Below, one piece after another: positions 3,243 through 28,718 of a stretch of 32,364 nucleotides of DNA; the first letter of the stretch is position 1, and each line of letters starts with the position of its first letter. The notes beneath the pieces are model-generated. The model had not been told where the DNA came from. It did no database searches and was given only the letters and a program-made list of their open reading frames with translations. The stretch spans positions 1 through 32,364 of the forward strand of contig JAPPGI010000085.1 in assembly GCA_028874985.1 (NCBI GenBank), given 5' to 3'. This stretch comes from Gemmatimonadota bacterium. GTDB taxonomy: Bacteria; Gemmatimonadota; Gemmatimonadetes; Longimicrobiales; Gaopeijiaceae. Both the position numbers and the translations under genes were made by a program.

Positions 3243-4658
3243 CTACGCCCCCACGATCTGCCAGGGCGCCCACTCCCTCCACTTCCCCCGCGTGAAGTCC
3301 GGAAACTCCACCGGCGCGCTCCCGTTCGCCACGCTGATCTCCGACAGCTCGCAGACCGCGCTCAGCGCCGCCGCGTCGTAGACGTTCATGTCCAGCGGCA
3401 GCCCCTCGCGCAGGCACTTGACGAGCCGGTAGTCCTCCATGAAGTCCATGCCGCCGTGGCCCGCGCCGATCGACGCCTCGCGCAGCGCCCTCCACAGCGG
3501 GTGCTCGAACTCCTCGTAGTAGCCCTCGGCCTCGTCCCAGCGGTGCGACTCGCTGCGGCCCTCGATGTACACCCGGTCGGGGTAACCCTGGAAGATCCCG
3601 CGCGTGCCCTGGACCTTGTTGATGCGGTCGTAGGGACGCGGGAGGTTGGTGTCGTGGGCCACGTAGATGGTCTTCCCCATCGCCGTCTGGATGAGGCTGC
3701 CGTTCACGTCGCCCAGCGCGAAGGTCTCGGCGCGCTTGGGGTGCCCCTCGGGGTAGTTGGCGACGGCCCACTCCTGCAGTCCTCGCGAGGGGCTGCTCAT
3801 CGAGACCAGGTGGGCGAACCGGTCGCCGCGGTTGATGTTCATGCAGTTGGCGACGGGACCGAGGCCGTGCGTGGGGTAGAGGTTGCCGTTGCGGGTCCAG
3901 GAGTGGTCGCGGCGCCACAGTCCCTCGCCGTCGTCGGCGAACTTGATGCCGCGCAGGTCGTGCAGGTAGCCGCACTCGGCGTGGAGGATCTCGCCCAGCA
4001 GCCCCTGGCGCACGAGGTTCAGGCAGAGCAGCTCGGCACGCCCGTAGTTGACGTTCTCCATCATGGTGCAGTGGCGGCTGGTGCGCTCGGCGGTCTCGAC
4101 CAGCTCCCAGCAGCCGTCCAGCGTGTACGCGGCCGGAACCTCGGTGGCCGCGTGCTTGCCGTTCTCCATGGCGGCGACGCAGATGGGGACGTGCCAGCGC
4201 CACGGGGTGGCGTTGTAGACGAGGTCGAGGTCCTCCTCGGCGCAGAGGCGCTCGAAGTCGGTCTCGCCGGCGGTGTAGAGCGCGGGGCGGGGGTGTCCCG
4301 CCTCCTCGATGAGGCCGGCGGCGCGCTCGGCGTGCTCTTCGCGGATGTCGCAGACCGCGGTGATCACGCAGCCGTCGATGCGGACCAGATTGCGGACGTG
4401 GGCCGTGCCCATCCCACCGACGCCCACGTACCCGATCCGCACCCGTTCGATGGGCGGGGCGGATAGGGGCTGGGCGGGCGGCGCCCCGAGTTCGCCCGGG
4501 ACGGCCGCGGTCCCGGACGGGGCCTCCCGACCGCCCGGTTGAGCCTCCTGTCCGGCGACGGGCGTTCCGCAGCCCGAAACCGCCCCCGCGGCCAGCCCCG
4601 CCGCTCCCGTCCTGAGGAATTCCCGTCGATCGAGTCCGCTCGAGCCGCCCTTCGTCAT
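3243..4658 (-). CDS. GH109-type NAD-dependent glycosidase (Gfo/Idh/MocA fold), Tat-exported
   Basis: A 471-residue Gfo/Idh/MocA-fold protein. It starts with a Tat signal (RREFLR, then an Ala/Gly-rich stretch ending at a Cys, so possibly a lipoprotein). The NAD-binding loop is GVGGMG, followed by EVPAAYTLDGCWELVE. The middle carries the run ENVNYGR, LVRQGLLGE, YLHDLRG, YPTHGLGP and INRGDRF, then GHGGMDF near the C-terminus. These match GH109 enzymes (alpha-N-acetylgalactosaminidases) that cleave by an oxidation-elimination-reduction route using tightly bound NAD. The start at 4658 has GGAAAGGA upstream. Substrate is inferred from family; it could act on another glycoside. It stands alone between the AAA fragment and a transporter gene. 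Confidence 0.85.
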   Translation of the reverse strand: MTKGGSSGLDRREFLRTGAAGLAAGAVSGCGTPVAGQEAQPGGREAPSGTAAVPGELGAPPAQPLSAPPIERVRIGYVGVGGMGTAHVRNLVRIDGCVITAVCDIREEHAERAAGLIEEAGHPRPALYTAGETDFERLCAEEDLDLVYNATPWRWHVPICVAAMENGKHAATEVPAAYTLDGCWELVETAERTSRHCTMMENVNYGRAELLCLNLVRQGLLGEILHAECGYLHDLRGIKFADDGEGLWRRDHSWTRNGNLYPTHGLGPVANCMNINRGDRFAHLVSMSSPSRGLQEWAVANYPEGHPKRAETFALGDVNGSLIQTAMGKTIYVAHDTNLPRPYDRINKVQGTRGIFQGYPDRVYIEGRSESHRWDEAEGYYEEFEHPLWRALREASIGAGHGGMDFMEDYRLVKCLREGLPLDMNVYDAAALSAVCELSEISVANGSAPVEFPDFTRGKWREWAPWQIVGA

Positions 4659-18461: not shown

Positions 18462-18503
18462 GGACTATGCGAGCGGGTCTGTCCATCGACCCCCTCGAAG
18501 AAG

Positions 18504-18576
18504 CTCCCGCGGCAGGACTCGAACCTGCGACCCGACGGTTAACAGCCGTCTGCTCTACCAGCTGAGCTACGCGGGA
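18504..18576 (-). tRNA. tRNA-Asn (anticodon GUU)
   Basis: A full cloverleaf is readable on the minus strand: 7-bp acceptor stem TCCCGCG/CGCGGGA, D-arm GCTCAGCTGGTAGAGC, anticodon stem GACGG/CCGTC with loop CTGTTAA (GUU), and T-arm GCAGG-TTCGAGT-CCTGC. The discriminator is G and no CCA is encoded. The gene lies directly downstream of a truncated PIN toxin gene on the same strand. Confidence 0.97.
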
Positions 18577-21491: not shown

Positions 21492-21523
21492 TTCTTTACG
21501 GAAGAATTCGGCCTAGTGTCACG

Positions 21524-21775
21524 TCAAACATCACACGTCGGATAGGGGCGCTTGACACGGGCGTCGCCCGCGGTGAACCGCCAGTCGACCCTGGCTCGGG
21601 ATTCGGGCTCCGGCCGCCTGTCGGGCGGAAGTCGGCATTGCACAGCGGCGGGATCACCCAGCCGACGCGCCGCCGCGGTTTGACTTGACGGCACCCGCCG
21701 CACCGTCTCGTGCGAGACGCCGTACTGCTTGGGGGGCGGCACGAATCCCGCCGGTGGCCTGTCCCATTCCGACAT
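21524..21775 (-). pseudogene. IS630-family transposase remnant
   Basis: The minus strand retains the helix-turn-helix segment YGVSHETVRRV, preceded by WDRPPAGF, and the C-terminal DWRFTAGDARVKRPYP that ends IS630-type transposases. The catalytic DDE core between them is missing and only about 70 codons remain, so this is a deleted, inactive copy. No clear terminal inverted repeats were seen. The rest of the gap between the amidase gene and 21819 shows nothing further. Confidence 0.55.
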
Positions 21776-21818
21776 GCTCGCGTCCCGGGTTTCGCCGCGG
21801 CGACGGGCGGGCGCCCGA

Positions 21819-21926
21819 TCACGCCACCGCCTCCAGCGCCGCGAGCTCCAGCGACAGCGGGACCGCCGAGTCGACGAAGCGGGGGGCGCCGTTGGACAGG
21901 CGGTTCAGGGGCGGCATCGCGCTCAT
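21819..21926 (-). CDS. Small ORF coupled to the AbiEii-like gene, unknown
   Basis: A 35-residue frame beginning at ATG 21926, which overlaps the stop of the nucleotidyltransferase gene as ATGA. It reads NRLSNGAPRFVDSAVPLSLEL in the middle and ends AALEAVA. I do not recognise it. It may be a tiny third gene of the operon or the start of a gene cut by the IS630 event next door. Confidence 0.3.
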   Translation of the reverse strand: MSAMPPLNRLSNGAPRFVDSAVPLSLELAALEAVA

Positions 21927-24552: not shown

Positions 24553-24867
24553 ATGATCGTCGTCAACACCGAAACCGTCCCGGGCCACCAGGTCGCGGAA
24601 GCGCTGGGCGTCGTTCGCGGAAGCACGATTCGCGCCAAGCACATCGGCAGGGACATCATGGCCAGCCTGCGAAACATCGTCGGCGGAGAGGTCAGGGAGT
24701 ACACCGAGATGCTCACCGAGACGAGGAACGAGAGCGTGCAGCGGATGAAGCAGGAGGCGCGGGCGCTCGGCGCCGACGCGGTGGTGAATCTGCGCTTCTC
24801 CACATCCCAGGTCATGGCGGGGGCCGCCGAATTGCTGGCGTACGGGACCGCGGTGAGATTCAGGTAG
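24553..24867 (+). CDS. YbjQ family (heavy-metal-binding domain, UPF0145) protein
   Basis: A 104-residue protein covering the whole YbjQ domain: VNTETVPGHQVAEALGVVRG, AKHIGRDIMASLRNIVGGE, EYTEMLTETRNESVQRM and ALGADAVVNLRFSTSQV are the conserved blocks. Members form pentamers; despite the name, metal binding is not well shown for most. AAAGGAG precedes the ATG at good spacing. It is the third gene of a small operon with two membrane proteins, which suggests a membrane-associated role that cannot be specified here. Confidence 0.9.
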   Translation: MIVVNTETVPGHQVAEALGVVRGSTIRAKHIGRDIMASLRNIVGGEVREYTEMLTETRNESVQRMKQEARALGADAVVNLRFSTSQVMAGAAELLAYGTAVRFR

Positions 24868-24922: not shown

Positions 24923-25357
24923 TCACCCCGGCATCCGAAACCGGAGCACCACGACCGTGTGCACCCCGGTCACCGGATCAACCACCACCCCGACGATGAC
25001 CTCCTCCCCGAAGAACGGCGGCGGATCGGCCAGCAGCGGCTCCGGCACGACGACCGTACCCGCGTAGCGCCCGTCGTATTCCAGGACATCGTAGTAACGC
25101 GATGACCCCATGCCCTCCGCAGGCCAGCGCTCGACCCAGAAGCGGTCCGATGCACCCACGTGGACGCCGGTGAATGCCGGCAGCGAGTCCGGGATCTCGC
25201 CCTGCAAGATCTCCGGCGCGACGTTCATCACATCGTCCAGCGGGACGGGAAGCGAATCGATGCGGGCCTCGATTGCCCTCATGCTGTCCGCGCGTTCGGC
25301 CCGAGGCACCGGGCGGCGCTCGATCTCAGGACCGGCGATCGTCCGGAGAAGATCGGA
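24923..25357 (-). pseudogene. C-terminal half of a 6-bladed beta-propeller gene
   Basis: About 140 residues of convincing coding sequence: LLRTIAGPEIERRPVP, RAIEARIDSLPVP, ending with SDRFWVERW, YYDVLEYDGRYAGTVVVP, and VVVDPVTGVHTVVVLRF. This is the end of the same exported propeller family whose members normally carry a signal peptide and about 400 residues. No start or signal peptide is present: upstream of about 25357 the frame runs antisense through another propeller gene fragment. It is therefore a 5'-truncated gene joined head to head with the fragment on the plus strand. Confidence 0.65.
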
Positions 25358-25804
25358 CTCGACGGAAGCGTCACCGGGACGATCGAGCGCCCGATCGCGC
25401 CCCTTCCCGTAGACGACGAGATCAAGGAGGCCGAGCGCGAGCGCTTCCGTAAAGCTCAGGAGGAGTCCGCTGATGCAATAGGCAGAACCAGCTCGTCCTT
25501 CCAGATCGAGCGGGAGGGGGTGGAGGAGCGCACCTTCGCCGAAGAGGTCCCGGTGCTGTGGGGCCTGGAGGTGGACTGGGAGGACCGGATCTGGGTGGAA
25601 CGCCGGGGTCCGACCGGCCGGGGCGACGGGCCGACCGACATCGTGAGACCCGGCGGAGAGTACATCGGCACCCTGCCGTCCGAGGGGCTCCGGACGCCGG
25701 ACGCCTTCGGCCCCGACGGGCTCATAGCCTACATCGAGCGCAACGAGATGGACGTTCCGACCGTGCGCGTGGTCAGGCTGGTTGCGCTGGAACCGGGGGG
25801 ATAG
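25357..25804 (+). pseudogene. C-terminal half of a second 6-bladed beta-propeller gene
   Basis: About 148 residues: LDGSVTGTIERPIAPLPVDD, a Lys/Glu/Arg-rich helix (EAERERFRKAQEE), WEDRIWVERRGP, PGGEYIGTLPSEGLRTPDAF, GLIAYIERNEMDVPTVRVVRL. It is the end of a propeller protein related to but distinct from the minus-strand fragment. It begins at the same blade position where the other begins, and it too lacks a start and signal peptide. Its 3' end overlaps the convergent M28 peptidase gene by 32 bases. Almost certainly not expressed as a functional exported protein. Confidence 0.65.
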
Positions 25805-28718
25805 GGTCCGTCTCCGGGAGTACGTCCCCCGGGTCACCCTCCCCGCCCCCCACGCCCGACTCGGCCCCCTCCTCAACCGGCGGTCCCCCCACCCCAACCA
25901 ACGTCACCTCCCCGCTCACGAGGTCGACGCTCACCACCGTCCGGATCATCGCGCGGTCCGAGAGCATGCGGGTGTTGGGCGCGAGCTCCGGCGGCCGGGC
26001 GAAGATGTTGCCGCCCACGAGCTCGCCCGGACGCAGGTGGTGCTCGATCACGGCAAACCTGAGGACGGTGTCGGCGGGGCCGACTTCGAAATCCAGCAGC
26101 ACGGCCCCCTCCGGAGCACCCCAATGCGTGAGCCGCACCGGGCGATCCCCGCCGGTGAGCGGCCTGCCGTTCAGACCGGCCAGCCGGGGCCCCGCCTCTC
26201 CGACGCGGACGATCCTCGTCTCCGAGCCGCCCTGCGCGACACCCGGGACGGGCTGGATGTCGCGCAGGCGGAAGAGCAACATCTCGGCGCCGATCTCCGA
26301 GGTGACGGCAAGGCGCAGCATGCCGCTCACGTCCGTGACGTTCGGCACGAGCTCGACGGTGGGCGGGGGCACGGTCAGGGGCTCGGCCTCCGCGACCGCG
26401 TAGCGAAGCCACTGCGCCGTGAACTGCGAGAGCGACTCCGGCGCCTCCGCCGTATCGACCGGCCCCACCGCCGCAACCGCCCACGCCATGCCCGGGTGGG
26501 AATCGTCCCGGGCGGGGTGGGTGCCCCACCAGGCGCCGCCGGTCTCCCGGTCCATGAGGTATACCAGCGTCGAGGGGGCGGGCCGCTCGGCCGAGGGCGT
26601 GGCGGTCGAGACTCCCACCGCGAGGAAGACGCCCGCCGAGGCCAACCCCGCCACCGGCGCCCACCACCCGTTGGGCTCGCGCAGCGCGTCGAGCAGGGGC
26701 AAGACCAGCACGAACACCAGGCCCGCGAGAATGGCCAGCACCGGCGCGAGTCCGATCCCCATCGCGAGCCACACGCTTTCGGTGAAGGGGGTCAGCACGG
26801 CCACGACGGGGAGCGCCGCCAGCACGGCCACCACCCAGCGCAGATGTCCCGGCCGGCCATCGCGGGGGACGCCCGCCACCGCCAGCGCACCGATGCACCC
26901 GGCCAGCACCGGCCACTGGAGGTTCACGGCCGCCATGGGGAACAGGACCGTAGTGGCACCGGCCAACATCACCGGCAGGAAGAGGGCGCCCACGGCCAGC
27001 TCGGCCACGGAGAACCACCTCCTGAGAAGCGTCAGCAAGAGGGTCGCCAGGACGAACGCGACGCTCACGATGGCCAGGACGTACCAGCCTTCGCTGTGGA
27101 AGGCGCCCGCATGGAGCGCCCCGAATTCCGGATGCGCGCCCGCACGCCATCGGTACAGGAACAACGCGGCCAGGCCCGCCGCTCCGAGCTGCGCAACCGA
27201 CGCCAAGAGACCCGCCGCGACACCGCCGGCCCGCAGCCCCCCCCGCCTCCCCACCACGAGCGCCACGACCCAAAGCACCATGGCAGCGCCCCCCAGCACC
27301 CAGATCCAGAACCTGCCGTACGTCACCAGCCCCACGACCGGCAGCGAGATGTAGCTCACGTCCGGGGCGTGCACCGTGCTCAGATCGGCGTTGCCGAAGT
27401 GGCGCAGCAAGGCCAGCACCTGGATTCCGTGGTGCTGCAGCGTCCCTTCGTCGAAGTTCTCCGGCGAATCGTAGACCTGGTGGTACACGTGCGCGCGTGC
27501 CACCCCGGCGAAGTTCAGGCCCTGCCTGCCGGCCTCCTTGAACGGCGTGAAGTCGGTGTCGTTGGGCATGCGCCGGTAGATCTCGTACGCCACCGAGTTC
27601 GCGACCGGTCGGGGGTTGGACTCTCCGAAGGCCGCGATCACCCAGCCGTTGTCGGCACCCGTCTCGAACATCATGGAGGGGCCGCCGCCACCCCGCATTT
27701 CGATCGACACGACGAGTGCCACATTCGCCATCCACGGGTGCTCGTCGACGAATGCGCGGGCACCCAGCAGCCCCAGTTCCTCCGCATCGGTGATGAGGAC
27801 GATGAGGTCGTTGCGGAGCCCGGGACCCTCGCCCAGGGCGCGGACCGCCTCCAGGATCGCGACCACCCCCGACGCGTCGTCGGCCGCCCCCAGCGCGATC
27901 CCGCGGCTGTCGTAGTGGGCGGTGACGAGCACGGCCGGGCCGCCGGGCTCCGTGCCGGGTATCCTGGCCAGGATGTTGCGCACGGTGGCCGCCGTTACGG
28001 CAATCCCGCCTCCGGTGGCCGAGGTCGCCGTCTGCACGAAGGGCTCGTGTCCCAGGGCGCGGAGCTGCCCCAGCAGGTATTCGCGCACACCTGCGTGCGC
28101 CGGAGAGCCGGGCGGGTGCGCCACGGAGGCTATCCTGACGAGGTGCGACATCGCCCTGCCGGACGAGAACACCGTGTCGGGGGCGGTGGCGGGGACCGGC
28201 GCGGGGACGGTGCGGAACACACTCGAGAACCACGCCAGGACGAGGAGCAACGCCAGCGTCAGCGGGCCGCGCATGCCGTTCCACGGGGGAGAAGCTGCGG
28301 AAGGCTCGGCCTTCCGGCCGGATTCCGGGGCTGTCGCGGTACCCTTATCGGCGGGCCGGCCGGCTCCCGGCTCCGTCCGCCCGGTGTCCGCCACCGCGGT
28401 CCTGCGGGCGGCTTTTCCCCTGCCGCGCGTTTCTCCCTTCCGCCCTCCGAACCGAAATCCCCTGCGCGCCTTGCGATCCTTCTCCCGCGGTTCCCCGCGT
28501 CCGCCCGGGCCGCGTCCTCCGGCCGCCGCCGGTTCCCCTCCACCGGTCACTCCCGCTTCCGTCCTGCCTCCCGCCTCCCGTGCCGGCCCGGCGTCGGCAC
28601 CGTCTTCCCCCTCCCCCGCCAACTCCCGCTCGATCTCCCGCTCCAACTCCTCGATCTCGTCCTCGCTGATCCCCAACTCCGCGAAGGACGGGATTTTCGG
28701 CAGCTTGTCGTCTGTCAT
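25773..28718 (-). CDS. M28 family metallopeptidase, multi-pass membrane protein
   Basis: A 981-residue protein. Residues 1-145 are charged and disordered-looking (acidic helix, then Arg/Gly-rich). A membrane helix follows (LTLALLLVLAWFSSVF), then an M28 aminopeptidase domain with the di-zinc ligands and base in VTAHYDSRG, GAADDASG, TDAEELGLLGA, SIEMRG and HQVYDSPENFD. The second half has about eight membrane segments and a C-terminal beta-rich domain. This layout matches membrane M28 peptidases of the Fxna/ERMP1 type. The ATG at 28718 has GGAGAGAG upstream. The peptidase domain should face the periplasm. Substrate unknown. Confidence 0.88.
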   Translation of the reverse strand: MTDDKLPKIPSFAELGISEDEIEELEREIERELAGEGEDGADAGPAREAGGRTEAGVTGGGEPAAAGGRGPGGRGEPREKDRKARRGFRFGGRKGETRGRGKAARRTAVADTGRTEPGAGRPADKGTATAPESGRKAEPSAASPPWNGMRGPLTLALLLVLAWFSSVFRTVPAPVPATAPDTVFSSGRAMSHLVRIASVAHPPGSPAHAGVREYLLGQLRALGHEPFVQTATSATGGGIAVTAATVRNILARIPGTEPGGPAVLVTAHYDSRGIALGAADDASGVVAILEAVRALGEGPGLRNDLIVLITDAEELGLLGARAFVDEHPWMANVALVVSIEMRGGGGPSMMFETGADNGWVIAAFGESNPRPVANSVAYEIYRRMPNDTDFTPFKEAGRQGLNFAGVARAHVYHQVYDSPENFDEGTLQHHGIQVLALLRHFGNADLSTVHAPDVSYISLPVVGLVTYGRFWIWVLGGAAMVLWVVALVVGRRGGLRAGGVAAGLLASVAQLGAAGLAALFLYRWRAGAHPEFGALHAGAFHSEGWYVLAIVSVAFVLATLLLTLLRRWFSVAELAVGALFLPVMLAGATTVLFPMAAVNLQWPVLAGCIGALAVAGVPRDGRPGHLRWVVAVLAALPVVAVLTPFTESVWLAMGIGLAPVLAILAGLVFVLVLPLLDALREPNGWWAPVAGLASAGVFLAVGVSTATPSAERPAPSTLVYLMDRETGGAWWGTHPARDDSHPGMAWAVAAVGPVDTAEAPESLSQFTAQWLRYAVAEAEPLTVPPPTVELVPNVTDVSGMLRLAVTSEIGAEMLLFRLRDIQPVPGVAQGGSETRIVRVGEAGPRLAGLNGRPLTGGDRPVRLTHWGAPEGAVLLDFEVGPADTVLRFAVIEHHLRPGELVGGNIFARPPELAPNTRMLSDRAMIRTVVSVDLVSGEVTLVGVGGPPVEEGAESGVGGGEGDPGDVLPETDPIPPVPAQPA

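Follow-up and report, generated by a model that had tools for sequence, protein, structure and literature searches.

Deletion scars produced by illegitimate end joining present two truncated genes that meet at a blunt join, with the middle missing and the flanks collinear, and the same features are found at the locus described here. Unlike the usual scars of this kind, both remnants are propeller genes, and they are broken at nearly the same place. One of them, remnant A, corresponds to the tail of a BlaR1/MecR1-type M56 peptidase sensor gene (PF05569) with a C-terminal propeller, of which intact relatives exist (L064-L069). In contrast to such sensor genes, it consists of the final 142 residues alone; the peptidase and the membrane part are gone. 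Judged by their intact relatives, the propeller part of A and, probably, remnant B go with the 6-bladed beta-propeller family (DUF5128, PF17170), but unlike members of this family, neither stub alone matches any Pfam or NCBIfam family. We found nothing specific in the literature on such a head-to-head pair of stubs. The feature is an ordinary broken-gene (pseudogene) scar and no new genetic system; it provides an example of gene loss by a blunt join at a variable locus, in a genome crowded with propeller paralogs.

The window, i.e., the whole stretch of DNA analyzed here (32,364 nucleotides), corresponds to an entire contig (C90) of the metagenome-assembled Gemmatimonadota genome G000 (4.25 Mb in 230 contigs, 95% complete). 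It contains two nose-to-nose gene stubs, both of which are 3' ends of propeller-protein genes. Remnant A (24923..25351, minus strand) comprises the last 142 codons and the stop codon of a fusion of a BlaR1-type M56 peptidase and a 6-bladed propeller, without the first ~580 codons. Remnant B (25352..25804, plus strand) comprises the last 150 codons and the stop codon of a 6-bladed-propeller gene, without the first ~270 codons. The preliminary description had reported two propeller C-termini joined head to head with their N-terminal parts gone, and the homologs of both (142 and 150 residues) that we found in congeners confirm this.

Base-by-base alignment with seven relatives of A and 14 relatives of B revealed a sharp break: the likeness to A stops at 25351 and the likeness to B starts at 25352. 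This falls within the range previously given for the junction (about 25345-25365), about 6 bp to the left of the position 25357 that had been read from the window alone. According to the sequence of the relatives, the A side would run on past the join as about CCGGCCATC, and the B side reads ...AAGCTC|ATCGG at the join, so that the junction (25351..25352) is blunt, with a microhomology of 0 or at most 1 bp. The palindrome TCGA, which had been placed at the join, is situated within B, a few bases away from the break, and no role of it is apparent. Near the junction we found one imperfect 19-nt inverted repeat (79% complementary, arms 319 nt apart) and no direct repeat or recombination-site repeat. 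In the protein alignment, the breaks are located at YRIQEFDQDGR|LLRTI in A and at YRVKL|IG.DGSVTGTI in B. They are 6 codons (18 bp) apart, and the earlier claim of a break at the same blade is right to within this distance. Two long GC-rich open frames cross the junction (24923-25897 on the minus strand and 25160-25804 on the plus strand) and should not be annotated as genes.

In congeneric genomes, each half is part of a separate intact gene. Among the 58 relatives searched, A and B never occur in one place, and DNA spanning the junction has no match in any of them. A alone was matched in seven congeners, with 77-80% DNA identity over positions 1-429 of the query and 68% in G020. Homologous intact A genes are present in G016, G005, G017, G019, G001, and G007; they encode a 6-bladed propeller preceded by an M56 peptidase of the BlaR1 type. 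The intact protein has ~726 amino acids in L064, and stub A retains ~20% of it; in six genomes, the frame is free of stops over 742-922 codons. Peptidase_M56 was detected in the intact L064 gene with an E-value of 1.6e-31 and is absent from stub A itself; the DUF5128 profile scores 35.1 bits in an intact A relative, above the cut-off of 22.9. Past its stop codon, remnant A no longer resembles its relatives, and in no relative does A lie next to the YbjQ-like gene. With 542 amino acids of L064 as query, the missing 5' part of A was not found in G000. The search returned only other propeller/M56 genes with 26-55% identity over short stretches, the best matches being other propeller genes at 31-39% amino acid identity. 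The A gene of G020 looks broken as well (L070, G020:C49:8811-9439), its open frame skipping from the propeller start to the C-terminal part in a different frame.

B alone was matched in many congeners, with up to 87% DNA identity over positions 430-882 of the query. Intact B proteins have ~416 amino acids or more, of which the stub retains ~36%; the 5' part of a B relative scores 20.1 bits with the DUF5128 profile, compared to the cut-off of 22.9. G014 carries an intact positional ortholog of B, which converges with this M28-type peptidase gene just as stub B does in the window, and the alignment with this genome is collinear from 25352 through the M28-type gene to ~32320. In the tree, the closest B is a copy from G010 and not the positional copy of G014. 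With 1152 bp of G014 as query, the missing 5' part of B was not found in G000, where the query matched short paralog stretches at ≤72% DNA identity (155 bp) and, beyond those, 50 bp at 84% and 40 bp at 85%.

The stubs are flanked on the left by a gene which we take to be YbjQ-like (24553..24867, plus strand; collinear with G006, G018, and G012 up to ~24866). On the right, they are flanked by an M28-type membrane peptidase gene (25773..28718, minus strand; named from its sequence), which is convergent with remnant B and collinear with G014, G006, G018, and G021. In G006:C98, G018:C50, and G021:C1, the left genes (acetamidase-like to YbjQ-like) and the right genes (M28-type peptidase onward) are both present on the single contig and arranged as in the window, and the gap between the flanking aligned blocks measures 7-11 kb compared to 1.4 kb in the window. 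In G006 and G018, this gap holds other genes, named from their sequence as S9-type peptidases, a Fur-like gene, and others. In G001, G017, and G019, ~0.2-2.4 kb separates the acetamidase-like and the M28-type genes. Because the order of the flanks is kept in congeners while the spacing between them differs, we conclude from these alignments that the locus is variable in gene content and that both sides of the contig belong together. Identity of the window to G006 drops from ~91% on the left to ~78% in the M28-type gene. Drops in the same direction occur between G006 and G018 (95 to 90) and between G006 and G021 (92 to 84), and the window stays outside both pairs. We rejected a contig built from two species, as the distance of each gene to its counterparts in congeners is in line with a rate specific to that gene.

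Overall, we regard it as likely that the junction is a deletion scar between two divergently oriented paralogs, formed by illegitimate, NHEJ-like end joining; the two stubs would meet because the stretch between the opposed propeller genes was most likely lost. In the ancestor, A on the minus and B on the plus strand would have stood back to back between the YbjQ-like and the M28-type peptidase genes; as A and B are divergently adjacent in no relative, this arrangement is one that we infer. A single deletion would then have taken the 5' parts of both genes along with anything between them; illegitimate end joining, whether Ku-dependent or not, would probably have sealed the ends that are now bluntly joined at 25351|25352. 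Since G000 encodes Ku, non-homologous end joining may be available in this genome, and a blunt or near-blunt join together with Ku is characteristic of its products. The deletion is further supported by the separate intact genes in relatives and the sharp limit of likeness. Among the three options offered in the preliminary description, deletion between divergent paralogs has the strongest support, given the intact B at the G014 locus, the absence of both missing halves from G000, and the flanks that are collinear across the junction. As in pseudogenes, the intact orthologs are much longer and the missing parts do not occur elsewhere in the genome. On the other side, the closest B in the tree is not the positional one, and the assembly that contains the junction is a metagenome bin of 230 contigs.

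Both 3' stubs would now be non-functional remnants that are starting to drift. Nonsynonymous and synonymous changes number 29:18 on the window branches compared to 19:29 in the sister sequences (Fisher p 0.04), in a count that takes each base change of a codon singly, with one intermediate even reading as a stop. This excess of nonsynonymous changes is a weak hint that the stubs may be under relaxed selection, which would fit a fairly recent loss. The signal is faint, and the absence of stops and frameshifts from both stubs counts against the deletion. In G000, a query consisting of M56 peptidase and propeller hits 106 places, mostly by propeller matches, which indicates a very large set of paralogs. 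Damaged propeller genes also occur elsewhere in this genome: L030 contains a premature stop, L035 a frameshift, and L044 is a 122-codon C-terminal fragment with a different break, surrounded by longer paralogs in an array. Inspection of these three short C-terminal frames led us to reject recurrent truncation at the same blade.

An assembly or binning chimera, in which two incomplete gene ends were joined by the assembler and the chromosome keeps intact genes at this place, had also been considered in the preliminary description. It draws on the fragmentation of the bin, on the window being a whole contig, on the more than 100 places that match the propeller query, and on the absence of a 27-mer across the junction from the GTDB r220 contigs and IMG/VR, both of which may omit the window's own genome. 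Yet it is unlikely: collinearity of the flanks with three congeners extends over both sides of the join, the distances obtained for the window on either side agree with each gene's own rate, and the assembly contains neither of the lost 5' halves. Moreover, the two sides share no sequence at the join that would presumably mislead an overlap- or k-mer-based assembler. Quite improbable, too, is the capture of a short piece of A at a break in B during repair, or a larger inversion or translocation instead of a simple deletion. In favor of these events, A is not a neighbor of the YbjQ-like gene in any relative, and the resemblance of the remnant to its relatives goes no further than the stop codon. 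On the other hand, more steps are needed, and after an inversion the 5' halves should still be present at other places in the genome, where neither was found.

If both breaks were random in propellers of ~1200 bp, they would coincide to within 18 bp with a probability of ~3% by a rough estimate; this coincidence was singled out for being eye-catching and is most likely due to chance. It is very unlikely that it marks a recombination-prone site in the family, at which C-terminal blades of propeller genes are preferentially exchanged or lost. A fold-back or hairpin-mediated event in which inverted homology of A and B was the driving force, proposed earlier as fold-back or template switch, has the near-homologous break positions in its favor and is nevertheless highly improbable. 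A and B share a single DNA match of 23 bp at 82% and ~27% protein identity; inverted homology cannot have guided the event because the two are too unlike in DNA. In addition, the join is blunt, the breaks are offset, and the nearby inverted repeat is the only one. We consider a programmed, shufflon-like exchange of C-terminal cassettes, in which the two tails would serve as silent cassettes, to be the least credible possibility and practically negligible. Two C-terminal modules do stand head to head and other short C-terminal open frames exist in the genome, but a recombination-site repeat is lacking at the junction, the three other short frames are those described above (stop, frameshift, and differently broken fragment), and no gene was found whose 5' half matches and which could act as donor.

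Elsewhere in the window, a tRNA-Asn gene (18503-18576) is better conserved than anything else in the left part, with 95-100% identity in many congeners. ARAGORN additionally called a tRNA-Arg (gcg, 91 bases) at 3751-3841 inside long open frames, which is possibly spurious. A dispersed repeat at 21513-21914 (~130-400 bp) has more than 10 further copies in G000 (78-98%), several of them at contig ends, and copies are also present in several congeners. It may represent a small mobile element and probably fragments the assembly.
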